From: an uncultured Methanobrevibacter sp. | GTDB lineage: Archaea; Methanobacteriota; Methanobacteria; Methanobacteriales; Methanobacteriaceae | NCBI RefSeq assembly: GCF_902764455.1 | Contig: NZ_CACWVY010000027.1 | Location: forward strand, 1-32,703 | Direction: 5' to 3' | DNA: 32,703 nucleotides | Shown: positions 984-32,703 of the stretch, one piece after another | How positions within the stretch are numbered: the first letter of the stretch is position 1 | Layout of the letters: the number at the start of each line of letters is the position of its first letter | The notes under the pieces: generated by a model | Seen by the model: only the letters and a program-made list of their open reading frames with translations | What the model was told of the DNA's origin: nothing | Databases searched by the model: none | Made by a program: the position numbers and the translations under genes

Positions 984-1006
984 TTATAAGGAGAAATTAT
1001 AAGGAG
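981..1006. repeat. Exact 13-bp tandem duplication causing a frameshift
   Basis: The 13-mer AAATTATAAGGAG occurs at 981-993 and again at 994-1006. Thirteen is not a multiple of three, so the duplication shifts the frame and creates a minus-strand TAA at 986-984. The Trp codon of each Cna_B VTKVW motif starts at plus positions 50, 338, 635, 923, 1233 and 1533. The gaps are 288, 297, 288, 310 and 300. Only the 310 gap is not divisible by three, and 310 minus 13 is 297. Confidence 0.9.
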
Positions 1007-4000
1007 TGTTATTAGCATATGTGACATTATAATTAGCAACAGACAACTCAGTAACATTGTACTTAATTAAAGCACCACCATTTTTATAAACAGGTAAACC
1101 ACTGAAATTACCTCTCCAATTATTAGTCGCATTCAACACAACTTCCCCAATAATAACATTAGGATCATCAACATCAAACAATCTAACAACAACACTAACA
1201 GGCATTACACCATCACGATTACCATCATCAACCCAAACCTTAGTAACATTAACAGAAGTCACTTCAACATCAAATTTATAGGTATTGTTAGCAATTATAA
1301 CAGTAAAATCATCTACAGTTTTATTAATGATATTCATTGTATAATTTTCAATAGGGATTTCACTAACTGTATAATTAATCACTTTACCATCTTTAACCAT
1401 TGGCAATTCGACGAAAATATGATTCCAATTATTTTTATCAGATAAAACAATTTCATCAATTTTCTTACCGTCAGCGAATAAAATAATGGTTACATTTTCA
1501 GGTCTCATACCATGTTGATTATTGTTATCATTCCATACTTTAGTGACATTAACTCTTATTGGTACAACTTCAGTTTTATTCTCTGTAGTTTTATTCTCAG
1601 TTACATTGGAATTTGCAACAACAACATTGGTAAAATTACCACTAACAGTTGTATTGAAAATAACTCTGAAAGAAGCACTAGCGTTTTTAGCTAAAACACC
1701 ATCAAGGACAAATTTATCCCCAACACGTTTCCAGTTACCTGTACCGTTAACATAACTATCAAATACTAATCCAGTGTATGATTTCTCAACGACAGTGACA
1801 TTGCCTAAATCACAGTCACCAGTATTGCGAACAACAATATTGAAACTAGTCTGATTACCAAGATAAACAGTCTTGTTCAAAGTAATCTTTTCAACAGTCA
1901 TGTTAGGCTTGTAAGCTGTAGTTTTGTTTGTTGCATTCAATGTTTCCATTAAAGCATGAGCATTTAATGAAACCTTGTTTACTAAGGTACCGTTTGTTAA
2001 TGTTTTAAACCAAATTGTGAAAGTATAACTTTCACCAACATTTATTGGTGAGTAACGTCCGACATATTCTCTTTCAATGGACATTCTACCATCTTGAGAT
2101 ATGGAATTAGAGTCAATACGATAATATTTAACAACATTAAGTGTTTTATTAGTTTTATCGACATTAGTTAATACTTTAAAGTAAAGACGTGAAGTTACAT
2201 TTTCATGAGCATTTATCACTCCTGAATAGAAAAATGTTCCATCTGCATTTTCAGTTAGATTAACATTTGTACAGTTAACAAACTTCAATTCAGCAGGATT
2301 ATAAATACTGCTAAATGTTATATTTTCAAGAGGACTGTCACAGGTATTATTCAAACAGATATCATATACAACAAAATCATTACCGTTAGTGTCGTTGAAT
2401 GTATCATTATATATTCTGTTTATTTTAATATTACCTTCTTGAGATAATAAATTGTTATCTTCACTAAAACTATATTTAATAATCTTAGGAATCATAGCAG
2501 CCAAATTAACATCTTTATTTAATATTTTAAAGTAAAGACTAAGTGTTTTACTTCTGTGAGCCTTAATCTCATCGATGAATAAAAATGTACCATCTGGATT
2601 TTTAATCAAATCGGCATTTGCACATTTAACAAACTCCAATTGAGACGGATCATAAACATTGCCGAATACTGTATTTTCAAGATTTTTACCACAGGTATTC
2701 TCTAAATAAATATTATATATAACAATGTCACCTACATCAGGGTCATGATAGAAAGTGAATGTATCGTTATTTTTAATCCAAGTTTTATTATCAGAATGAC
2801 GGATGTATTCCAATTCAGTTGAATTATAAATTTCTTTTATTGTAATATTTACAAGAGGTTTATCTCCAGTGTTATTGACTGTAATATTAAATGCTACAGT
2901 ATCATTTACTGTGATAAAGTCTGTGGTGTTTAAATAAGTCTTGTCTATTTTTGGTATTGGAGTAATAAGGAACAGGAATAGACTCTGTGAAGCAGGAGAC
3001 ATTAAAGTTGAAAAATGATACTTAATCATTGTACCCTTAACCATTTTTGTTTGATCCTGACTGATTCTCTCCCCATTGTCATAACGCCTCAATATTTCTT
3101 GCACAAATGGATGTTTACTTTTTCTGAAGTCATGATCAGAGAATACGTGAACCGCTCTGCTGTAATAATCTGTACGGCTGATTGGAACCCAATTTGATCT
3201 ATCATCTTTTATTAAGTGAGGATAGTCTTCATATCCTTCAGGATATAATGTAAAATCATCTTGTGCATGAGGGTAAACCTCTTCCATTGAATTAAATGCC
3301 ACATAAACCAAAAGTTTCAGGTATTCAACAATACTTTCTTTAGATTTTACGTTTATTAATCCCTGTAATGATTCGTCGTATGCCCCATATTTTGGCAGTA
3401 GAGAATTTCTTTCAAAACACATTCCAATATATGAATTGTTCATCAGACGTGTTGAATTACCGATATTGTATCGGATAATTTCTGCTAAATCACTAGGAAC
3501 ATAAGCAATATTCTCATCAGGAATATGCAAATCTATTAAATCCAATGTACCACTATGATAAATATCATTACCGTATTTTGCGCTGTTGGAAGAGAAGTGT
3601 GAAGCGTTGATTTTTGAATCATATGAATGGATAGCACCACCCATGTTTGCAGAGTTGTTTATGAAAGTACAGTTATCCATTTCTGTATCAAGGGATGCTA
3701 TAGCACCACCGTAATTTTGACAGGTGTTGTTAATAAATCTTGTGTTCTGAATATATTTATCTGCATGATAATAATAGTAATCACAGGCTATTGCTCCACC
3801 TGCATACATTGCATGGTTTTTGTAGAAATATGAATTATTTACTAAACATGCTCCTTCATCAATCCAGTGGATAGCTCCACCTTTGTATGCGGAGTTTTCT
3901 ATAAATGTTGAATTGTCAACAGTACCGTATGCATCTAAAGCAAGAGCACCACCAACATACGCTAGTACCTTATTCCTAATGAAAGTTGAACCGTTGATTA

Positions 4001-6782
4001 ACAGATTTTTTCCAACACCGTTAATCGCACCACCTTCACTTGATGCATTGTTTTCAGTGAATGTTGAATTATAAATTACTCCATGGTCACCCATCCAGTG
4101 AATAGCACCACCATTAGCATAAACAACATTTCTTTCAAAAATACAATTTTCTACAATTGCATAATCATCAGAAATACTTAATGCTCCTCCTTCAGAGAAG
4201 TTACCCTCGTTGAATACACTATTTGAAATAAATTTAGTATTATTTATAGTTGCGTTATTTCCAACCCAGTAAACAGCTCCTCCTTGAGCATACTGTTGAC
4301 CTTTAGTTTTTACAATATTGCTATCAAACACAGAGTGGTCAATAACACCATTTTTACCTTGCCAGAAGATAGCTCCAGCATTAATCTTAGGTCTAACATC
4401 AATAGGCAATTTGAGGTTTTCTTCATTGGTAAACGCACCGTTTTGGGTGAAACGAGAATTATCCACGGTTACATTATCACCTATGAAAATATAAATAGCA
4501 CCACCCATACTAGCATTGTTATAAGACATATTGGTATTGTTTACTAGTGAATTGCCATGATAGATATAAAGAGCACCACCATAAGATGCATTATTATGTT
4601 CAAAGCGTGAGTTATCTATGGTATTGTTTTCTCCATTCAATTGAACAGCACCACCATTATTGCTAGCAGTGTTATAATAAAATTCACTTCGATTTATAAT
4701 ATTTCCTTTTGATTCTACATAAACAGCACCAGCAATCAAATTAGCTTCATTGTGCTTGAATATTGAGCCACGAATAGTGTTGTTAAGATCCTGATTAGCA
4801 TGTTCTGAATTTTCCGCTATGAAGATTGCACCACCTCTACCAGAGTATAAGTTTGAACTTGAAGAGTCTCCTATAGCCTTATTTTCAGTAAAGTTAGAAC
4901 AATCAATAGTATTGTTTGTTCCAAGAATTTCGATAGCACCTGCTCTATCAGCATAATTTTTATTAAATTCCGAATTGTTTACAACTGCATTATCCCTTTG
5001 TAGATATATTGCACCTGCAAATCCATCAGCATAATTTTTATTAAATTCTGAATTATTAATTAATAAATTATTACGCACCTCTATTGCACCAGCACTAACT
5101 CTTGCATTATTATCCTTGAATTCAGAACCTTCAATTGTTCCATTTATTCCCTCCCATACTATTGCTCCACCAGTTCGGGCAGTGTTTTCATTAAATTTTG
5201 AACCGCTAATTGTTCCATTAGCCCCAATCCAATAAATCGCACCACCTTGATCAGCGTTATGTTTATTGAATTCTGAGTTTAATATTTCTACATTGTTACC
5301 ATCAACATAAACAGCAGCACCATTACCTCCAGAACTATTAATTGAATTTTCATTGAATTTAGATTCATCTATAGTGATATTACTACCAGAAATACAAATT
5401 GCACCTGCAAATGAATCTGCAATGTTATGATTAATTACTGAATTATTAAGAGTGTTATCATGACCTGCCATATAAATAGCACCGGCACCAACATCAGCAT
5501 GGTTATTTTCAAAAGTGGAATCATTAACCAAGTTATCATAACCAGCTAAATAAACAGCACCACCAAAATATCCGTCATTACTTTCAAAAGTAGAAGCATT
5601 AACCAAGTTATCATAACCAGCTAAATAAACAGCACCACCATAATAGTAAACGTCATTATTTTTAAAAGTGGAATCATTAACCAAGTTATCATAACCAACT
5701 AAATAAACAGCACCACCATAATACTCAGCATGATTATTTTCAAAAGTAGAACCATTAATCAAGTTATCATGACCGCCTAAAAAAACAGTACCATAATCTC
5801 CTTCATTACTTTCAAAAGTAGAATCATTAACCAAGTTATTATTACCATTTAAATAAACAGCACTACCTTGAGATGCATAATTATCATTAAAAGTAGAATC
5901 ATTAACCAAGTTATTATTACCCTTTAAATAAACAGCACCACCATAAGATGATGCTTGATTGCTTTCAAAAGTACAATTCTGAACTAAATTTTGAGTTCCT
6001 GTTACATAAACAGATCCTCCCCTTTGTCCATTTTTGTTATTTTTAAAAGTGGAATTGTAAATTGAATTACGTCCACCTTCCACATAAACAGCACCACCTA
6101 AATAATTTCTACCGTCATTTTTCTCAAAAGTACAGTTTATAATATTATTGTAATAACCACCTAATAAAAGAGCACCACCATAGTATGCTTGATTATCGAT
6201 AAATTTTGAATTAATTACTTTATTACCCATACCTGTAATTGAGAGCGGACCCTCAGTTGACATAGTATTGTTTTTGAATGTACAATTGTCAACTGTACAG
6301 AAATTACCTTCAATAAGAACACTTGAATTTTCATTACAATTTACAAAAGTAATATTTTGCAAAGTAACATGTTTGGTGGTGTTTAAAATATGGAATACCA
6401 TTGCCTGATTTTCACCGCTTATTGTGTGACCATTACCAACAATAGTAATAGACTGAAGAACTGTTATGTTTTTTATAGCATCCAAGTCAGAATACGCATA
6501 ATTTTTATCAAGACTAAGAATACCGCCATAATTTGAATCAATCAAACTCTGCAGTTCCGTATAGTTTCCAACATCACCTGATTGAAGAGTGTTTTGAGAA
6601 TTAGTTGCACTTAATTTTACATTGATGTCATTAGCATTTTCTGCTAAAACAGCGCTATCGCTATCCAACATCAATTTTCCATCTTCCGTTCCAACCACAG
6701 AGTTATCTCCAGCTGAAACTGCATTCATTACCATTAATAATAGAAAAACTATTAATAAAATACTTTCTAGTTTAAATTTCAT
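984..6782 (-). CDS. Giant adhesin-like surface protein (beta-helix, thioester-like module, DUF11-like and Cna_B domains), main open part
   Basis: Secreted surface protein, probably for adhesion to other cells or plant or host material (inferred from architecture). The ATG at 6782 is preferred over an in-frame TTG at 6794 because GAGG lies about 7 nt upstream of it; the product is then 1932 aa. Residues 1-25 form a signal peptide with a long hydrophobic run. About residues 85-1085 are parallel beta-helix rungs of roughly 25 aa with recurring GGAIY/GGAVYL and NSTF-x-NN motifs, as in polymorphic-membrane-protein-like repeats. About 1090-1290 is a non-repetitive module with Cys1122 that resembles a thioester domain. 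About 1290-1730 holds DUF11-like repeats (NITVNNTGD-type motifs). From about 1740 come Cna_B domains (VTKVW, RP, YTVSE). The frame ends at 984 because of a 13-bp tandem duplication; the Cna_B array continues in another frame to the left edge. Asn- and Thr-rich. Confident on class, not on ligand. Confidence 0.85.
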   Translation of the reverse strand: MKFKLESILLIVFLLLMVMNAVSAGDNSVVGTEDGKLMLDSDSAVLAENANDINVKLSATNSQNTLQSGDVGNYTELQSLIDSNYGGILSLDKNYAYSDLDAIKNITVLQSITIVGNGHTISGENQAMVFHILNTTKHVTLQNITFVNCNENSSVLIEGNFCTVDNCTFKNNTMSTEGPLSITGMGNKVINSKFIDNQAYYGGALLLGGYYNNIINCTFEKNDGRNYLGGAVYVEGGRNSIYNSTFKNNKNGQRGGSVYVTGTQNLVQNCTFESNQASSYGGAVYLKGNNNLVNDSTFNDNYASQGSAVYLNGNNNLVNDSTFESNEGDYGTVFLGGHDNLINGSTFENNHAEYYGGAVYLVGYDNLVNDSTFKNNDVYYYGGAVYLAGYDNLVNASTFESNDGYFGGAVYLAGYDNLVNDSTFENNHADVGAGAIYMAGHDNTLNNSVINHNIADSFAGAICISGSNITIDESKFNENSINSSGGNGAAVYVDGNNVEILNSEFNKHNADQGGAIYWIGANGTISGSKFNENTARTGGAIVWEGINGTIEGSEFKDNNARVSAGAIEVRNNLLINNSEFNKNYADGFAGAIYLQRDNAVVNNSEFNKNYADRAGAIEILGTNNTIDCSNFTENKAIGDSSSSNLYSGRGGAIFIAENSEHANQDLNNTIRGSIFKHNEANLIAGAVYVESKGNIINRSEFYYNTASNNGGAVQLNGENNTIDNSRFEHNNASYGGALYIYHGNSLVNNTNMSYNNASMGGAIYIFIGDNVTVDNSRFTQNGAFTNEENLKLPIDVRPKINAGAIFWQGKNGVIDHSVFDSNIVKTKGQQYAQGGAVYWVGNNATINNTKFISNSVFNEGNFSEGGALSISDDYAIVENCIFERNVVYANGGAIHWMGDHGVIYNSTFTENNASSEGGAINGVGKNLLINGSTFIRNKVLAYVGGALALDAYGTVDNSTFIENSAYKGGAIHWIDEGACLVNNSYFYKNHAMYAGGAIACDYYYYHADKYIQNTRFINNTCQNYGGAIASLDTEMDNCTFINNSANMGGAIHSYDSKINASHFSSNSAKYGNDIYHSGTLDLIDLHIPDENIAYVPSDLAEIIRYNIGNSTRLMNNSYIGMCFERNSLLPKYGAYDESLQGLINVKSKESIVEYLKLLVYVAFNSMEEVYPHAQDDFTLYPEGYEDYPHLIKDDRSNWVPISRTDYYSRAVHVFSDHDFRKSKHPFVQEILRRYDNGERISQDQTKMVKGTMIKYHFSTLMSPASQSLFLFLITPIPKIDKTYLNTTDFITVNDTVAFNITVNNTGDKPLVNITIKEIYNSTELEYIRHSDNKTWIKNNDTFTFYHDPDVGDIVIYNIYLENTCGKNLENTVFGNVYDPSQLEFVKCANADLIKNPDGTFLFIDEIKAHRSKTLSLYFKILNKDVNLAAMIPKIIKYSFSEDNNLLSQEGNIKINRIYNDTFNDTNGNDFVVYDICLNNTCDSPLENITFSSIYNPAELKFVNCTNVNLTENADGTFFYSGVINAHENVTSRLYFKVLTNVDKTNKTLNVVKYYRIDSNSISQDGRMSIEREYVGRYSPINVGESYTFTIWFKTLTNGTLVNKVSLNAHALMETLNATNKTTAYKPNMTVEKITLNKTVYLGNQTSFNIVVRNTGDCDLGNVTVVEKSYTGLVFDSYVNGTGNWKRVGDKFVLDGVLAKNASASFRVIFNTTVSGNFTNVVVANSNVTENKTTENKTEVVPIRVNVTKVWNDNNNQHGMRPENVTIILFADGKKIDEIVLSDKNNWNHIFVELPMVKDGKVINYTVSEIPIENYTMNIINKTVDDFTVIIANNTYKFDVEVTSVNVTKVWVDDGNRDGVMPVSVVVRLFDVDDPNVIIGEVVLNATNNWRGNFSGLPVYKNGGALIKYNVTELSVANYNVTYANNTPYNFSL
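3540..6500 (-). repeat. Beta-helix rung repeats within the adhesin
   Basis: About forty degenerate repeats of roughly 75-78 bp (25-26 codons), each encoding one rung with the consensus N-x-(L/I)-(V/I)-N-x-S-x-F-x-x-N-x-A-x-x-x-G-G-A-(V/I)-Y. The block from about 5500 to 5960 is the most homogeneous: the DNA encoding LVNDSTF and AVYL recurs nearly unchanged, for example starting at 5524, 5599 and 5677. This suggests recent rung duplication. Confidence 0.8.
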
Positions 6783-6828
6783 TGTTTTCCTCAAAAGAGA
6801 GTCAAATCAACACATAAACTACTCAAAT

Positions 6829-23384: not shown

Positions 23385-26300
23385 TTATTTAACTGTTATT
23401 TTTACATTTTTACTTATTGTATTATAATAAGCATCACCAAATTTAACAACAGCAGTAAATTTACCTTTTTTGGTCAATTTTGTAATTTTAAAAGTGGCCT
23501 TACCCTTTGAATTGGTTGTTGCCTTATATGTTTTGCCGCCTACTTTTAAAGTTACCTTCTTGCTTTTCAGTACCTTATTTAAATTGGATTTCAGGGTTAT
23601 AGTATATGACTTGGTTTTTAGTTTTACTTTGAAAGTTTTGGCTGATGCTGTTATTTTAGGAGTTGCCTTTTTTATAACAAGTTTAGCTTCGCCCCTGACA
23701 TATTTTGTGTCATCCACTTTAATGTAATATGTGTTTGGAACGAAATTACATGTCAGTTTTGCATATCCTTCAACATCAGTTGAACTTTTATAGATATTAA
23801 TCAGCTTCCTGTTTTTGTCATATACTGCAAACTTAATAGGCTGTGCTGAAATCGGATTTTCTTTATAGTCAAGAACACGTACTGTAAATGTTTTGGAATC
23901 GCCATAAACCTTATTTAAATTGTTAATGATAAAAACAGGTGTTTTGTCTTCAATGGATACTTTTATGGATTTTGAAACCGGATTGAAAATATTGTCACCG
24001 GAATATTTTACCAATACATTAAATACACCGGAATCTGAAAATGTTAAATAGGATGCACCGTTTCTTATTCCTGTCGGATATTGATTGCCATCTACAATGA
24101 AAGTAATTGTTCCTGTAGCAGAGGAATATGACAGGCTGGCCATTAAAGCATCCTTATCATCGACTGTAGTCATCTTTAATGTAAGTACAGGATTTATTTT
24201 TGAAACTGTGAAATTCAGTGAAGATGAAACCTCTTTATAATTTGAATTTCCAATGAATTTGGCAGATACCGTATATGAACCTGCATCCAATCCCATTAAA
24301 TCAAAAACTGCCTTACCGTTCTCCAAGGCGATTGTATTTTCTCTTGATGCTGCATTAAATACAATATACCCTTCGGCAGATTGTGGAGTTATGCTGGCGG
24401 TTATGCTTACAGTACCGTCCTTTTGAGAATACTGCAAAGCAATTTCAGGAGTTGATTTTAAAATGTTTAATCTGAACTGTTTCTGTTCACCTGTAACAGG
24501 ATTTGTAGCTATAACAGAATAGCTGCCTGTATTTAAATTGACATTAACGCTTGCAACACCGTTACTGTTGGTTGTTGCACTGTACTGCTTGCCTGCAATA
24601 TTAAAGAATACCCCAGTATTTGAAAGTATTTTGGAAGCTGAATCCATGAAGCTGGCTTTAAATACTGCATTTGAATATTCAGCATTTACATCCATAGCTG
24701 AAATTGTTGACAATATTGTAATCTTTGATGTTACTGACACTCCACCGTATTCTGAGATAAAAGCATATTCTCCAGTTTCATAATCTTCTATATCAATTGA
24801 AATGATTCCTTTACTATTAGTCGGGAAATTATATACCTCACCGTCAAATGTGCATTTAACAACTTCGCCCACTACAGGATTATTATTATTTTTAACTGTA
24901 ATTATAAAAGGCTCTACACCATTATACATCTTAACCAAATCAGGGGCGGAAATTGTGATTCTTGGAGTGACTATAATAAAATCAAGTGAGGACATTGCAT
25001 TGTTAAAGTTGTTGTCTCCAACATAATTTGCAACTGCAGTGTAACTTCCTTCGCTTAAATCAGTTAATGTCAATGCAGCTTTTCCATTTTTAACATTAAC
25101 AGTGTACTTATTGGATCCGACAGTGAAAATCACATTACCGGTAGCAGTCACAGGTGTTAGACTTGCAGTTAAAGTAATTTGTGAGTCACTTTGGCTTCTT
25201 GATAATGTAATTTGAGGATTGGCTTTGGTAATCTGAATTTCAAATTCCTTTTTCTCACCTGTAACAGGGTTGACTGCAGTGACAGTGTGGAATCCAACAT
25301 CCAGATTAAGTTTTGCGGTTGCAAATCCGTAAACATCTGTGGTTGCTTTAACTGAAGCTGTTCCCACTTTAAATGTTGCTTCCTTATTTACAACACCTTT
25401 CCCTTCATCGTCAACAAATTTGACAGTGACGCTTGATTTTAGATATTCGCCTGAATACTGGACTGATGAAATTGTGGAACGCACTTCAAGACCTGAAAGA
25501 CTTGATTGGCCTCCATATTGAACAAGGACTGTGTAGTTTCCAATATCCAGACCCGGAAACTGCACATAAGCCCGGCCTTTAGAGTCTGTTATTCCGATAT
25601 AAGTTTTATTTTGGATTGTGAATCTGACAGTCTGGCCTGAAACGCCGCAATTATTTTCATCAACAACATCTGCAAATATTCTGCTGTACTCTCCGTAATA
25701 CATCCAGACATTGTATGGGTCTAATGTATAATCGTCATCTACAACAGATAAAATCAGATGTGAACCTGTTCCATAAAAATTAACATTTCCGGAGTAGCTC
25801 GCAAGAATATCATAAGTTCCTGCATCAAGGTTTATTAATTCCCATGTGGCAGTTCCATTGACAACATTGACATAATGATTTCCATTGAAAAAGAAATTGA
25901 CATTACCTGTTGCATCTGCAGATGATAAAGTGGCTGTAATGATAATTCTTTCCGCATTTTGAACAGCAGTAATTTCCAAATCTACTGTTCTTTTAAATAT
26001 ATCCAATTTTATACGTTTTTGCTCTCCGGTTATTGGGTTTATAACTGTAACATTATAACTTCCTGCATCCAATGGAATATTTACAAGTACGTAACCTGCA
26101 GCTGATGTCATTACCCTAAAGTCAGTATTTCCAATTCTGAATATTACTTCCTTATCTGAAAGGAGGTTGCCCTCGGTATCCAAAAAGCTTGCAAAAAGGA
26201 AAGACTGTAAATAAAGTCCGCTTGCATCTTTAGCATCGATTGTTGATTTGACAATGAATTTTGAGGAAACTGATTTTCCACCGTATTCAGATACTATATT

Positions 26301-29300
26301 ATATGTTCCGCTTGGAAGGGTCAAATCAAGGACTGCCTGACCGGTACTGTTTGTTCTTACTGTATAAACCTTATTGTCTACGGTGATTTTTACACTTGCA
26401 CCGCTGACCGGCAGATCATTGTTTGTTAGGGATACAACGTATTTTTGAGAACCTCCGTAATATTTTGAAACATCTGAAGCCTTGAGAGAAATCCTGTCTT
26501 CAACTTTGGATACTACATTGAAATTGAACATTACTACATTTGATATTTCAAGATTTGTTTTATAATAAGCTGTAAGAGAATGAGTGCCTAACTTGGAAAA
26601 GCTGATATTCAAAGAGGCCTTTCCGTTTTTAATAGGTGCATAGTAATATGTTCCGTCAATATTGAATGTGATAAATCCGTTTAGATAATGGCGGTGTCCG
26701 TCAACAACATAATATTCAGGTATTGTTGCAGTTATTGTGACAATTTCATTAACTTTAACCTCATTTAACTGGTTGACATTGATGTTTACCTGTTTTAAAG
26801 TTGGGGAACGTGTGAATGCTTTAATGCATGCTACTGAAGAGCTGTAGTATAAGTCATACCATGTTTTTCCGTCTGTGCTGTAGAATGATGTTTCATCGCT
26901 GAAAGTTACTTTATTGATTACATTTGCCATACATACAGGAAGTCTGTAGCCGTTATTTCCAAAGCATTTGAATTCAACAACGAATTCATCCCCTTTTGCC
27001 AGCTGGATTTCCTTGTCGAGAGGGAATGTGTAATATCCTGCCTGAGTATAGCCTTCCTGGGTTGTAATCAAATTGCCGTTTAAATAAACTGAAACTGAAT
27101 AGTTTGTAGGGTCATAGAAGAATGTTGAAACTGCTGTTAAAATATCATTGCTTGAGGATATGAATTTGTTTTTGGAATAGACTGTATTTGCACTTGGAAG
27201 GTTTCTATAACCTGTTACTCCTGAAAAATCGTATTGGTAAATGTCAGAGTATCCTCTGTCTTCATTGAAGATAAAAGTATAGGCGTTTTTAAATTCCTTT
27301 TCGTAGGACATATAGAAATAACCGTTATCATACCAGTCTTCTCCCCAGCTGTTTTTAAATATCCATGCTCCGGTGGATTTGGTGTTGAAATAGTCAAATC
27401 CTGTGTATTCATCATCCCATCCTACAAGTGTGATTGCATGGCTTCCGGTATCCCATTTTGTAGAGACTGAAACAGCACCGCAGTCCATTATTGCTCTTTT
27501 AACTAAATCGTTATCATATGAATTTTTCCTTTCAGGTATGCAGTAGATATTTTGAATATGCAGGGCAGGGTCATAAATAACGGATAATGATGAATAATCG
27601 TCATAAACATCCTTATCATCATTGACAGGTCCGAACCAGCTTGCAAGATATGCCATGAACATGTATAGGTTTCCACCATCGTTTGATTCAATGTCCCATC
27701 CGAACAGTGAATATGCTGCCATGAGGTTTTTGGCGTTTTCCTCTGAAAAGTCATAGGTAATTCCTGTTGCCTTTTTAAGACATGCTTCAAGTGTTGCAAT
27801 TCCTGAAAATGCCCAGCAGTTACCACCTCTTTTCTGATCCTTGACAGGAGTTATATATCCGTAATCCCTTGAATCATAAGAAACAGGCAGGCTTTGGGGA
27901 GTTACAGTGTAGTTAAATAACGGCACGGATGAATAAGGATTGATATCATAAAGATTACCGTATTGAAGCAATATCATGAAATTTTTAAAGTTAAGGTCAA
28001 AAAGCACATCGCTGATATGATTTTCATGAGTTGTTAATGCTCCAACATCAGAATAAATAATGTCTCCGGCTTCATCAATAATGTATGCTTCGATAAATTC
28101 ATTTTCAAATTTATTGCCGTATTTTTCAAGGTCAAACAGTAACCTGTTGTCCTGGTTTATGTCAGTGTATATAATTGGAGAAGGATTTCCTTCAACGGAA
28201 ATATTAAACTTCACATAGTTACTGTCGTCAGCATTGTCATTGGCCAGAGGCACGACATAGACACCATTGCTTGAAACGCTGAATGTAAGGTAATTGCTTA
28301 TTGCCACATACTCTTCACCATTCAGAGTAGCTGAATAAAGACAGACAAGGTTGTAGATTTCCTGATAGACATTGTTTTTTTCCACAACACTACCAGCATC
28401 ACCGTCTACAAATATTATATGACCGTAAGCAGCTGTAGAATTTACAAATGTGTTATTGTTTAAATATAGGGAGTCTGAAAGCCTGCTGCAGATTGCACCA
28501 CCGCTTGAATCAGCATGAGAGTCTTCTATAGTATTGCCCTGAATGCCTGCATAACCGTAAACATTGTATATTGTTCCGCCATAGTATACTGCAAAATTCC
28601 TGCTGAATCTGGAATCAAGAAGAGTGAAATTTGATTTAAGATTACAGATTGCACCTCCGAAAAATGATTTTCCATCAGTAAATGATGAATCATAAACGTT
28701 TAAAGTGGAATTCAATGAATAAATAGCTCCACCGGCATCACTTAGGGACTGATAATTATTGAATATAGAATTATATACAAGTGAATCGCTTGAATCTGAA
28801 ACTATTACACCACCGAAGCTGTATGCCTGTGAATCCCTGAAGTCTGAATCAAAAACTTTTAGGACAGATGCCTTAGAATAGATAACACCACCATATCCTG
28901 CCTTATTTTTTGAAAATGAAGAATTTGAAATAACCACATTAGAGGCACTGCTATAGACAACACCTCCGAAACGTGTTGAGGATGAATTATAAAATATACA
29001 ATTTTGAATGTTTACATAGGAATTGAATGCGGCAATAACTCCCCCATTGACTGCACAATCATTAATGAAACTGCATCGATTCAGATATACTGAGTTTTCC
29101 TTTCCGCGTGGTGCATTGGAGATTATTACACCACCATAAGTGCTGTCGTATTCATCGGACAAATATGGCAGACTTGGTCCTTCATCTTCTGTGAATCCGA
29201 CGCTGTTTACAAAACTAACATTTTCAGCAACCAGTGTTGCCTGATTGTTTATGTGAATGTTGTCCAGTGTCAAACCGGCCAGAGCAAAATAAGAATCCGA

Positions 29301-29753
29301 ACTGACTATAAAATCAAAGGAATCGGATAATTTAGACCTGATGATAGTATTTTGAATACTTTCACCGACAAAAATGGTCTTATATGATGAAGAGGATGAA
29401 ATTGTTAATGAATCGGACAGTTCATAGATACCGTCTGCAAAATAAGCAACTGTACCATATCCTATCCTGCCATTTTTTAGATATTTATATGGATTGTTTC
29501 TAGATCCGTCTCCGTCATGGGCTGCAGATGCATCGAAATAAACTGATGTTGCAGCTAAAATGTCATCATCCTGTGATATTGAAAGCCGACCGTCGTCATA
29601 CGTGTTTAACTGAGATTGAGAATAATTCTGTGAAATTGAACTTTCATGAACAGAATCATAAGTTATGTTCACATCACTTGCATATGCTGTTGAAACAGCA
29701 AAAAATATGCAAAGAATTGAACAGATAAGCAATATTTTCTTTTTATAATTCAT
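23385..29753 (-). CDS. Giant adhesin-like protein with an embedded papain-family (C1) cysteine protease and Ig-like array
   Basis: Secreted 2122-aa surface protein. Residues 1-26 are a signal peptide (MNYKKKILLICSILCIFFAV...). About 70-460 is a parallel beta-helix with GGVIYS/GGAIY rungs. About 620-825 is a papain-like domain: PVSYDSRDYGYITPVKDQ, oxyanion Gln640, catalytic Cys646 in GGNCWAFSG, His772 in GSHAITLVGW and Asn801 in FKNSWGEDW. The Gln-Cys spacing of 6 equals that of papain. About 830-970 fits the lectin-like domain that often follows C1 domains in prokaryotes. About 1085-1855 is three copies of a three-module Ig-like block, then further Ig-like domains, ending in a Lys-rich Ig-like module (about 2028-2122). 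Start ATG at 29753 after AGGGG. It may cleave surface or foreign proteins, or process itself; the substrate is unknown. No membrane anchor at the C-terminus. Confidence 0.88.
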   Translation of the reverse strand: MNYKKKILLICSILCIFFAVSTAYASDVNITYDSVHESSISQNYSQSQLNTYDDGRLSISQDDDILAATSVYFDASAAHDGDGSRNNPYKYLKNGRIGYGTVAYFADGIYELSDSLTISSSSSYKTIFVGESIQNTIIRSKLSDSFDFIVSSDSYFALAGLTLDNIHINNQATLVAENVSFVNSVGFTEDEGPSLPYLSDEYDSTYGGVIISNAPRGKENSVYLNRCSFINDCAVNGGVIAAFNSYVNIQNCIFYNSSSTRFGGVVYSSASNVVISNSSFSKNKAGYGGVIYSKASVLKVFDSDFRDSQAYSFGGVIVSDSSDSLVYNSIFNNYQSLSDAGGAIYSLNSTLNVYDSSFTDGKSFFGGAICNLKSNFTLLDSRFSRNFAVYYGGTIYNVYGYAGIQGNTIEDSHADSSGGAICSRLSDSLYLNNNTFVNSTAAYGHIIFVDGDAGSVVEKNNVYQEIYNLVCLYSATLNGEEYVAISNYLTFSVSSNGVYVVPLANDNADDSNYVKFNISVEGNPSPIIYTDINQDNRLLFDLEKYGNKFENEFIEAYIIDEAGDIIYSDVGALTTHENHISDVLFDLNFKNFMILLQYGNLYDINPYSSVPLFNYTVTPQSLPVSYDSRDYGYITPVKDQKRGGNCWAFSGIATLEACLKKATGITYDFSEENAKNLMAAYSLFGWDIESNDGGNLYMFMAYLASWFGPVNDDKDVYDDYSSLSVIYDPALHIQNIYCIPERKNSYDNDLVKRAIMDCGAVSVSTKWDTGSHAITLVGWDDEYTGFDYFNTKSTGAWIFKNSWGEDWYDNGYFYMSYEKEFKNAYTFIFNEDRGYSDIYQYDFSGVTGYRNLPSANTVYSKNKFISSSNDILTAVSTFFYDPTNYSVSVYLNGNLITTQEGYTQAGYYTFPLDKEIQLAKGDEFVVEFKCFGNNGYRLPVCMANVINKVTFSDETSFYSTDGKTWYDLYYSSSVACIKAFTRSPTLKQVNINVNQLNEVKVNEIVTITATIPEYYVVDGHRHYLNGFITFNIDGTYYYAPIKNGKASLNISFSKLGTHSLTAYYKTNLEISNVVMFNFNVVSKVEDRISLKASDVSKYYGGSQKYVVSLTNNDLPVSGASVKITVDNKVYTVRTNSTGQAVLDLTLPSGTYNIVSEYGGKSVSSKFIVKSTIDAKDASGLYLQSFLFASFLDTEGNLLSDKEVIFRIGNTDFRVMTSAAGYVLVNIPLDAGSYNVTVINPITGEQKRIKLDIFKRTVDLEITAVQNAERIIITATLSSADATGNVNFFFNGNHYVNVVNGTATWELINLDAGTYDILASYSGNVNFYGTGSHLILSVVDDDYTLDPYNVWMYYGEYSRIFADVVDENNCGVSGQTVRFTIQNKTYIGITDSKGRAYVQFPGLDIGNYTVLVQYGGQSSLSGLEVRSTISSVQYSGEYLKSSVTVKFVDDEGKGVVNKEATFKVGTASVKATTDVYGFATAKLNLDVGFHTVTAVNPVTGEKKEFEIQITKANPQITLSRSQSDSQITLTASLTPVTATGNVIFTVGSNKYTVNVKNGKAALTLTDLSEGSYTAVANYVGDNNFNNAMSSLDFIIVTPRITISAPDLVKMYNGVEPFIITVKNNNNPVVGEVVKCTFDGEVYNFPTNSKGIISIDIEDYETGEYAFISEYGGVSVTSKITILSTISAMDVNAEYSNAVFKASFMDSASKILSNTGVFFNIAGKQYSATTNSNGVASVNVNLNTGSYSVIATNPVTGEQKQFRLNILKSTPEIALQYSQKDGTVSITASITPQSAEGYIVFNAASRENTIALENGKAVFDLMGLDAGSYTVSAKFIGNSNYKEVSSSLNFTVSKINPVLTLKMTTVDDKDALMASLSYSSATGTITFIVDGNQYPTGIRNGASYLTFSDSGVFNVLVKYSGDNIFNPVSKSIKVSIEDKTPVFIINNLNKVYGDSKTFTVRVLDYKENPISAQPIKFAVYDKNRKLINIYKSSTDVEGYAKLTCNFVPNTYYIKVDDTKYVRGEAKLVIKKATPKITASAKTFKVKLKTKSYTITLKSNLNKVLKSKKVTLKVGGKTYKATTNSKGKATFKITKLTKKGKFTAVVKFGDAYYNTISKNVKITVK
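24190..26500 (-). repeat. Three tandem super-repeats of about 255 codons in the protease-bearing adhesin
   Basis: Each block of about 770 bp encodes three Ig-like modules in fixed order: one beginning near YYG or MYNG and ending SEYGG(K/V)SV, one beginning STI and ending NP(V/I)TGE(Q/K)K, and one with the (S/T)A(T/E)G-x-(V/I)-x-F pattern. Approximate boundaries are 26500-25745, 25745-24965 and 24965-24190. Copies are diverged at DNA level, so the expansion is old. Confidence 0.7.
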
Positions 29754-30178: not shown

Positions 30179-32703
30179 TTAAATTATTTTTAATTTTTTA
30201 GCGGTTGCTTCATCCACATTTCCAGTTACTTTCAAACCTTTGGCTTTCTGGAACTCTTTTACAGCATTGAAAGTATGCTCAGCATAAATACCGTCAACTT
30301 TCAAGTAATGGCCATATGCAGAAAGATAAAATCCATTATTTTTCAATGCCCTTTGGATTTTTTTAACAGCTGCAGAGTCCTTGCTGCCTTTAAAGACTGT
30401 TTTGAAAGCAGATTTAACAGTAATTTTAGCCTTTTTAGTAACTTTTTTAAAGTATTTATTGCCTTTGTATGTAACTGTTGCCTTGAAAGTTCCTTTTTTG
30501 TTGAGTTTGAGAATCTTGAAGGTTGCTTTACCTTTGCTGTTGGTAGTGGCCTCGTATGTTTTGCCGCCAACCCTCAGAGTAACTTTAGCCTTCTTGATTG
30601 CTTTTCCTTTATTGTCCTTTAAGGTAACTGTGTACTTTTTGCTTTTTGTAGATGATTTGAAGGTTTTCTTATTGGCAGTTAACTTTGGAGTAGCCTTCTG
30701 GACAGTGATTTTTACAGTAGTATTGAATCCGTTGTAGTTATCAGTTCCCTTAAATGACACAGGCACATCATAAGTTTTAGGAGCTAAACCTTTGGTTGGT
30801 ATGTTGATTTGGCCTTTTTTATCAGTTGTATATTCTTTAGGTCCGTTTAAATCAACTGTAACTGTCATGTTGGAAATAGGATTACCATTTTCATCCTCAA
30901 ATGTCAATATTACATCTTTACCGCTGTTATATAAAGGAGTTGTTGTTGCACTGGCAGTTGTATTGGCTTTGCTGACTTCAAAATCAACACTTTTACTAAC
31001 AGGATTGTGATTGTCATCACCGGCAACAGTAACTGTCAAGGTATGATTTCCAGCATCCAAAACAGGAATTGAAACTTTACCGTCCTTAATTTCAACACTT
31101 ACATTGTCAATTTCAGCAGTAATTTCACCTGCACCATCAACTTTTACATCAATTTCAGCAGACTCACCATAAGTAAGATCAATATCACCAACACCAACAC
31201 TTGAATCAGCCTTACTGACAGTTATATCAACACTTTTTGTTACCGGATTATGATTACTATCAGGAACCACAGTAACATTTAAAGTATAATTACCAGCATC
31301 CAAACCAGAAACACTAATTGTATTATTATCCACATTAACAACAGCCTCAGGATGATCAACAACTTCACCAGTAACTTCAACAGCACCGGAAACAGACACA
31401 CTAACAGAACCTGTTTCACCATAAGTCAGATTAATGTCATCAACATCCACGCTTGAATCAACCTTATTTACAGTTATCTCCGCAGTTTTAGTTACAGGAT
31501 TATGATTATCATCAGGAACAACAGTAACACTTAAAGTATAATTACCAGCATCCAAACCGGAAACACTAATTGTATTATTATCAACATTAACAACAGCCTC
31601 AGGATGACCAACAACCTCCGCACTAATCTCACAAGCACCATTAACAGTCACATTTACAGAGTCTGACTTACCATAATCAAAAGTAATATCATCAACAGAC
31701 AAGGTTGAATCAGCCTTTTTAACTTCAAAATCAACGCTCTTGGTAACAGGATTGTGATTGTCATCACCGGCAACAGTAACATTTAAAGTATAATTACCAG
31801 CATCCAAACCAGAAACACTAATTATATTATTATCCACATTAACAGCAGCCTCAGGATGACCAACAACCTCTGCAGTGATTCCAGAAGCACCACTAACAGA
31901 CACACTAACAGAACCTGTTTCACCATAAGTCATGTTAAACTCACCAACATCCACGCTTGAATCAACCTTATTTACAGTTATCTCAGCAGTTTTAGTTACA
32001 GGATTATGATTATCATCAGGAACAACAATAACATTTAAAGTATAATTACCAGCATCCAAACCAGAAACAGAAATTGTATTATTATCTACATTAACAACAG
32101 CCTCAGGATGACCAACAACCTCAGCATTAATCTCAGAAGCGCCACTAACAGTCACATTTACAGATTCTGATTTACCATAATCAAAAGTAATATCATCAAC
32201 TGATAATGTTGAATTGGCTTTGATTACTGTGATTTCAATGCTTTTGCTTGACTCAGCATATTTATTATTGCCTGAAAATGTGACGGTGATGTTTGCTGAA
32301 CCTGCACCTACAGCAGCAATTTCACCATTGGAATCAACTTTAACAATGTCATTGTTGCTGCTTTCAAATGTAACATTTCCTTCAGCATCAGAAGGTGAAA
32401 GAATATAAGTAATATTTGCTTTCTCACCGAAAACCATCTGTGAAACTGTATTTACAGTAATTTCAGTTTGTATTTTGTTTACAGTAACGTTGACAATGAC
32501 TGAATCATATTTATAAACAAGATCATCTCCAACACTGACAATAATGGTTGCATTACCCTCACCAAGAGCTATAATGTTTCCATCACCATCAACAGACACA
32601 ATACCATAATCAGCAGTTGTGAAATTGACTTTTAAATTATTAGGAGTTGGAACAGCAACAATAGTATCATTATCCCCAACATTTAAATTATAAACAGTCT
32701 TGG
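30179..32703 (-). CDS. Adhesin-like protein with tandem Ig-like repeats and a C-terminal PG_binding_1-like domain (5' end outside the window)
   Basis: The reading frame is open to the right edge, so the N-terminus and signal peptide are missing; 841 codons are seen. From the visible N-terminal end there are Big_2-like domains (VSVDGDGNIIALGEGNATI, VDSNGEIAAVGAGSANITV). Five tandem Ig-like repeats of about 84 residues follow at 32212-30962, then an Ig-like linker domain (TTASATTTPLYNSG...). Next is a Lys-rich Ig-like module at about 30708-30410, matching the C-terminus of the protease-bearing adhesin. The last 75 residues (GSKDSAAVKKIQRALKNNGF ... DEATAKKLKII) match PG_binding_1: (V)xxIQxxL, VDGIYAEHTFNAVKEFQKAKGL and the final DEATAKKL. 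In a pseudomurein-walled archaeon this domain is a plausible wall anchor (inference). Ligand unknown. Confidence 0.85.
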   Translation of the reverse strand, partial: KTVYNLNVGDNDTIVAVPTPNNLKVNFTTADYGIVSVDGDGNIIALGEGNATIIVSVGDDLVYKYDSVIVNVTVNKIQTEITVNTVSQMVFGEKANITYILSPSDAEGNVTFESSNNDIVKVDSNGEIAAVGAGSANITVTFSGNNKYAESSKSIEITVIKANSTLSVDDITFDYGKSESVNVTVSGASEINAEVVGHPEAVVNVDNNTISVSGLDAGNYTLNVIVVPDDNHNPVTKTAEITVNKVDSSVDVGEFNMTYGETGSVSVSVSGASGITAEVVGHPEAAVNVDNNIISVSGLDAGNYTLNVTVAGDDNHNPVTKSVDFEVKKADSTLSVDDITFDYGKSDSVNVTVNGACEISAEVVGHPEAVVNVDNNTISVSGLDAGNYTLSVTVVPDDNHNPVTKTAEITVNKVDSSVDVDDINLTYGETGSVSVSVSGAVEVTGEVVDHPEAVVNVDNNTISVSGLDAGNYTLNVTVVPDSNHNPVTKSVDITVSKADSSVGVGDIDLTYGESAEIDVKVDGAGEITAEIDNVSVEIKDGKVSIPVLDAGNHTLTVTVAGDDNHNPVSKSVDFEVSKANTTASATTTPLYNSGKDVILTFEDENGNPISNMTVTVDLNGPKEYTTDKKGQINIPTKGLAPKTYDVPVSFKGTDNYNGFNTTVKITVQKATPKLTANKKTFKSSTKSKKYTVTLKDNKGKAIKKAKVTLRVGGKTYEATTNSKGKATFKILKLNKKGTFKATVTYKGNKYFKKVTKKAKITVKSAFKTVFKGSKDSAAVKKIQRALKNNGFYLSAYGHYLKVDGIYAEHTFNAVKEFQKAKGLKVTGNVDEATAKKLKII
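30962..32212 (-). repeat. Five tandem 252-bp Ig-like repeats in alternating A-B-A-B-C order
   Basis: Units lie at 32212-31961, 31960-31709, 31708-31457, 31456-31205 (252 bp, 84 codons each) and a more diverged 31204-30962 (243 bp, 81 codons). Units 1 and 3 share STLSVDDITFDYGKS; units 2 and 4 share SSVDV and TYGETGSVSVSVSGA. All carry SGLDAGNYTL and DDNHNPVTK or a close variant. The alternation indicates duplication of a 504-bp dimer. Confidence 0.85.

Follow-up and report, generated by a model that had tools for sequence, protein, structure and literature searches.

The window, the whole 32,703-nucleotide stretch that was analysed and an entire contig within a 2.75 Mb draft genome of an uncultured Methanobrevibacter sp., encodes on its reverse strand (23385-29753) a protein of 2122 amino acids, counted from the ATG. 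With a probability of roughly 0.55, this is a secreted, cell-surface adhesin-like protein that carries a Cwp84-type module, predicted to be enzymatically competent, with a beta-helix on one side and an Ig-like stalk on the other. The presence on this adhesin of a papain-type domain with a full catalytic set is confirmed as real, far beyond chance. Among the neighbouring genes are those for methionyl-tRNA synthetase, a radical SAM protein of the CofH type and the large subunit of an archaeal DNA primase, so the contig is chromosomal and archaeal; the nearest named relatives in the tree are uncultured Methanobrevibacter. The features of the protein are as follows.

29676-29753, reverse strand: Sec-type signal peptide, residues about 1-26 (MNYKKKILLICSILCIFFAVSTAYA); from the sequence, cleavage point judged by eye
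28359-29558, reverse strand: right-handed beta-helix, residues about 66-465; AlphaFold2 pLDDT mostly 83-98 with regular short strands, and a Chlam_PMP repeat match
27966-28355, reverse strand: insert, residues about 467-596; without a confident fold, absent from the closest paralogue
27891-27965, reverse strand: short linker (residues 597-621, YGNLYDINPYSSVPLFNYTVTPQSL) just before the protease; the closest paralogue has a similar one
27294-27890, reverse strand: Peptidase_C1 (papain family) domain, residues 622-820; Pfam, Cwp84 profile match and Foldseek
27834-27836, reverse strand: Gln640, oxyanion-hole residue; same in 135/135 sequences
27816-27818, reverse strand: Cys646, catalytic nucleophile; same in 135/135
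27438-27440, reverse strand: His772, catalytic base; same in 135/135
27351-27353, reverse strand: Asn801, catalytic helper; same in 134/135, with one Asp
26811-27242, reverse strand: Lectin_like domain (PF18560), residues 838-981; Pfam, with the Cwp84 match running through it
23664-26786, reverse strand: array of Ig-like (Big) domains, residues about 990-2030; Big_3_5 (9.1e-62, eight stretches) and Big_1 (1.3e-27)
23388-23663, reverse strand: C-terminal lysine-rich (27% Lys) domain, residues 2031-2122; candidate cell-surface attachment domain

The signal peptide, the beta-helix and the archaeal Ig-like (Big) repeats mark the product as a Methanobacteriales adhesin-like protein; NCBIfam matched it to no family. 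Its lysine-rich C-terminal domain is likened, by description and not by alignment, to the 'M1-C' domain of PMC2812497. Other surface proteins are encoded elsewhere in the window. Two overlapping adhesin ORFs on the reverse strand, at 984-6794 (with a beta-helix, DUF11 and Cna_B) and 2-1057 (with Cna_B repeats), may be one frameshift-broken gene or two genes. An Ig-like surface protein at 30179-32701 (reverse strand), cut by the contig end, has a C-terminal PG_binding_1 domain (3e-16), which is unexpected in an organism whose group has pseudomurein walls.

The protease domain was matched by Pfam PF00112 (Peptidase_C1) over residues 622-820 with an E-value of 1.3e-17 (score 65 bits, cut-off 20.7), and the match spans profile positions 1-207 of 220, that is, the whole domain. 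Directly C-terminal to it, residues 838-981 match PF18560 (Lectin_like) with an E-value of 6.7e-17. Gln640 and Cys646 lie within KDQKRGGNCWAFSG, His772 within SHAITLVGW and Asn801 within FKNSWGEDW; these four residues are the catalytic set of peptidase family C1A, in the right order. The initial annotation had named the same four, and the interval it gave, 27200-27900, agrees with the positions of the Peptidase_C1 and Lectin_like domains listed above. Its placement of the protease between a beta-helix and a lectin-like plus Ig-like array was borne out by both Pfam and AlphaFold2. A profile match to Cwp84 of Clostridioides difficile (4ci7), with an E-value of 3.7e-57, covers both the protease and the lectin-like domain.

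An AlphaFold2 model of residues 31-1000, computed with 37 aligned family members, has a mean pLDDT of 77.7 and a pTM of 0.78. The beta-helix, protease and lectin-like domain are modelled with confidence, residues 467-617 without it. The top Foldseek matches in the PDB are the Cwp84 structures 4ci7 and 4d59 (E about 3e-16), and the next are mature papain-family chains and cathepsins (TMt about 0.7). The domain is thus predicted to have a two-lobed papain fold, and the structure prediction that had been proposed as a check returned this fold. For a typical, insert-free paralogue (L049), the model reaches a mean pLDDT of 90 and a pTM of 0.89 across beta-helix, protease and lectin-like domain, which suggests that the three domains pack as a single unit; within its linker, about 20 residues have a pLDDT of 72-74. 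Foldseek again matched this model to Cwp84, with a TMt of 0.79 against the form after propeptide cleavage.

Cwp84 (4ci7, 4d59, 4d5a), also a surface protein, is the best match of the module in both sequence and fold, and has the same order of C1A protease and lectin-like domain. It comes with a short, cleavable propeptide and with repeats that bind the cell wall (PMC4089489), whereas the adhesin has a beta-helix N-terminal to the module and an Ig-like array C-terminal to it, and a propeptide of this type was not found in it. The protein that Cwp84 processes lies on the surface of the same cell, and Cwp84 also sheds its propeptide (PMC4089489). The lectin-like domain of Cwp84 has a calcium site (Leu339, Glu448, Lys460 and Asn487). 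No ligand of that domain has been reported (PMC4089489). The same C1 plus lectin-like module, with the same catalytic residues, occurs in proteases secreted by Methanosarcina, Methanoregula and a range of bacteria, but nearly all of these, unlike the protein described here, have a propeptide. Classical papain and cathepsin L share the catalytic fold and residues, but have an I29 propeptide and do not sit within a large surface protein.

The pairing of papain domain and adhesin is already known, and in itself is no novelty because three papers precede us. Papain domains (PF00112) were described in 'several' adhesin-like proteins of M. ruminantium M1, with a suggested role in pseudomurein turnover (PMC2812497, 2010). 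One PF00112 adhesin-like protein each was reported for M. smithii and Methanosphaera stadtmanae, and the lectin-like domain was named among rare domain types (PMC11532034, 2024). A putative peptidase_C1 with adhesin-like domains was enriched in vesicles of M. smithii and M. intestini (PMC12134236, 2025). The papain-domain proteins of M. ruminantium M1, M. smithii and M. stadtmanae are of the same kind as ours. The main texts of PMC2812497 and PMC11532034 do not mention conservation of the catalytic set, a relation to Cwp84, the lack of the propeptide or gene numbers such as the 18 in this genome, and we did not find the intactness survey, the Cwp84 relation, the copy number or the propeptide contrast in the open-licence papers searched. 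Proteolytic activity of a methanogen member is likewise reported in none of the open-licence papers found.

The catalytic residues are conserved in nearly all of the family members compared. The Gln, Cys, His and Asn were complete in 47/47 sequences, comprising the 18 genes of the same genome, unselected, and the 29 best-scoring genes from elsewhere, and in 134/135 after the addition of 88 sequences found by patterns that favour His and Asn, among which only Gln and Cys are unbiased. To lessen this bias, the C1 matches of five more genomes were taken, even the weakest, except for one match in G071. The resulting six genomes gave 73 distinct segments, 65 with the full set (QCHN), five with Asp in place of Asn (QCHD) and three fragments, which come from one split gene in G114 and one truncated gene in G039. 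No substitution of the catalytic cysteine occurs among the C1 segments of these six genomes, which speaks for catalysis. Frequent loss of Cys646 in orthologues had been named beforehand as grounds for abandoning the protease reading; the opposite was found, the cysteine being kept wherever the region is present. The split adhesin (L192 + L194) is interrupted by a frame change and only the C-terminal half of the truncated one (L159) is left; these are occasional pseudogenes or assembly errors. A minority branch (L157, L186, L189, L191, L193 and the second ORF of L135, 3551-6137) has Asp for the catalytic Asn (KDS for KNS), often with QGDN or a similar motif ahead of CWAF. With this variant Cys-His-Asp set, catalysis may be slowed or changed in some paralogues.

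The N-terminal side of the protease differs from that of relatives elsewhere. A classical inhibitory prodomain had been noted as absent from the adhesin, and indeed the I29 propeptide is unmatched by Pfam. The suggestion of the initial annotation that residues 465-620 serve as a prodomain did not hold up. About 120 of these residues are an insert that is missing in most relatives, including the closest paralogue, L060 (58% identity across 358 columns, with an identical catalytic set), whose beta-helix and protease are about 120 residues nearer to each other, and the prodomain reading was rejected on this ground. The AlphaFold2 pLDDT of the insert is mostly below 50. Only one orthologue, L063, shares it at all clearly, and weakly (E 2.7e-5), with residues 459-567 of the window protein (about 28053-28379) matching residues 477-586 of the L063 ORF.

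Outside the Methanobacteriaceae, in archaea and bacteria alike, the module nearly always begins 80-200 residues into the protein, and the propeptide there has the pattern APxNPxF..Y ... GxIPxPxDLSHL. A profile built from these relatives (Cwp84's own propeptide was not the query) matched 32/32 testable rows outside the Methanobacteriaceae (30/32 when each was left out in turn) and 0/97 Methanobacteriaceae rows at E<1e-3; against the window protein it gave an E-value of 1.2, over the signal peptide only. In Methanobacteriaceae usually 350-640 residues precede the protease, forming a beta-helix in most proteins and Ig-like domains in a few (L087, L091, L098); L027 has a short N-terminal part that is neither. 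Judged by sequence, then, the beta-helix usually stands where relatives have the propeptide, and it may be doing the propeptide's work. A bolder proposal, that the beta-helix has replaced the propeptide and both regulates the protease and attaches to a target (cell or glycan), such that the paralogues are contact-dependent, target-specific surface proteases directed at partner or rival cells, we regard as speculative and rather doubtful. The chagasin-type inhibitor I42 is unmatched in this genome; Methanosarcina acetivorans does match.

The pairing is not singular in Methanobrevibacter, with 18 genes for the protease/lectin-like pair in this genome alone in addition to the published precedents. 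A survey of C1 domains in adhesins, another check proposed at the outset, found PF00112 in 107/139 Methanobacteriaceae genomes and PF18560 in 107, and these genomes carry the pair. Among the high-quality genomes, 63 have matches, and in these the two counts are nearly equal (Spearman coefficient 0.99); the median is 4 per genome, 15 genomes have at least 10 and the maximum is 20 matches, a few genes yielding two matches each. Prokaryotic genomes mostly have a single C1A sequence, with up to three on occasion (PMC10380794). A recent burst of copies was ruled out: the 18 paralogues are scattered on the tree (17 changes against 17.2 when shuffled) and are therefore mostly old lineages common to several species. 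The protein is probably an active surface protease of a known kind and a member of a large old family; what sets it apart is the beta-helix at the place of the propeptide. We saw no sign of a phage origin of the gene, the phage collection giving only five records (MT837935, MT839909, MT838937, MT835662 and MT838865, all unannotated faecal 'Bacteriophage sp.') with relatives of the module at 26-29% identity; these are possibly misassigned cellular fragments.

The presumed substrate subsites were placed by counting from anchors (Gly693-Gly694 as papain 65-66, His772 as 159) and not from coordinates. Among 100 Methanobacteriaceae rows, columns 695, 696 and 770 (papain 67, 68 and 157) fall at the 92nd, 98th and 89th percentiles of entropy, and neighbouring columns, including that of the invariant His772, are fixed. 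This variability at the presumed S2 and S3 subsites fits differing substrates, short of proof, as surface columns vary in many domains without bearing on specificity. Fixed catalytic residues beside variable presumed subsites would mean that the paralogues probably cut different substrates.

These observations bear on what the domain does. One possibility, which we consider unlikely though worth entertaining, is that it mainly matures or sheds the adhesins themselves or their siblings, as Cwp84 matures SlpA, and does not act on foreign proteins. Cwp84, the closest solved relative, does act on a protein at the surface of its own cell and loses its propeptide by its own action (PMC4089489), the protease lies within an adhesin, adjoining the beta-helix, and one C1 adhesin is enriched in vesicles (PMC12134236). 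Yet 18 divergent paralogues with variable presumed subsites are more than a single maturation step needs, and no shared cleavage motif is known.

A role in pseudomurein turnover, as suggested in print for M. ruminantium M1 (PMC2812497), in which the domain would cleave the peptides of the archaeal wall, appears improbable. It would suit a protein located at the cell wall, and cysteine peptidases of a different family, PeiW and PeiP, do cleave pseudomurein; their target is an epsilon-linked Ala-Lys bond (PMC2989375), unusual for a papain. The distribution also argues against wall turnover. Pseudomurein is typical of Methanobacteriaceae, but PF00112 is unmatched in 10/17 sampled genera of the family, and the module occurs in Methanosarcina, Methanoregula and many bacteria, all of which are without pseudomurein. 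We give slightly less credence still to a papain fold turned adhesion domain, in which catalysis is now irrelevant. The adhesin architecture around the domain and the Asn-to-Asp branch are compatible with such a scaffold, but binding would not require that Cys, His and Gln remain unsubstituted wherever the region is present.

The most likely reading is of an active, surface-tethered ectoprotease with paralogue-specific substrates, and overall the earlier interpretation is partly supported. The Ig-like stalk and lysine-rich C-terminus would hold the protein on the cell, and the protease would cut proteins at the contact surface, in reducing and anoxic surroundings. The lectin-like domain could shape the cleft or dock a glycan or glycoprotein, while the beta-helix and short linker may stand in for the lost propeptide in folding or gating. 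The substrates would most likely be proteins of partner or neighbour cells, proteins secreted by them, or dietary proteins.

Adhesins are the main suspects for the hold of rumen and gut methanogens on their hydrogen-producing partners. If up to about 20 working proteases per genome, with differing clefts, are displayed on them, these archaea would edit the proteins of the contact surface as well as stick to it, and the ectoprotease reading would matter for methane mitigation and for the use of adhesins as vaccine antigens. The exchange of a propeptide for a beta-helix, if true, would be an unusual means of controlling a papain-type enzyme.
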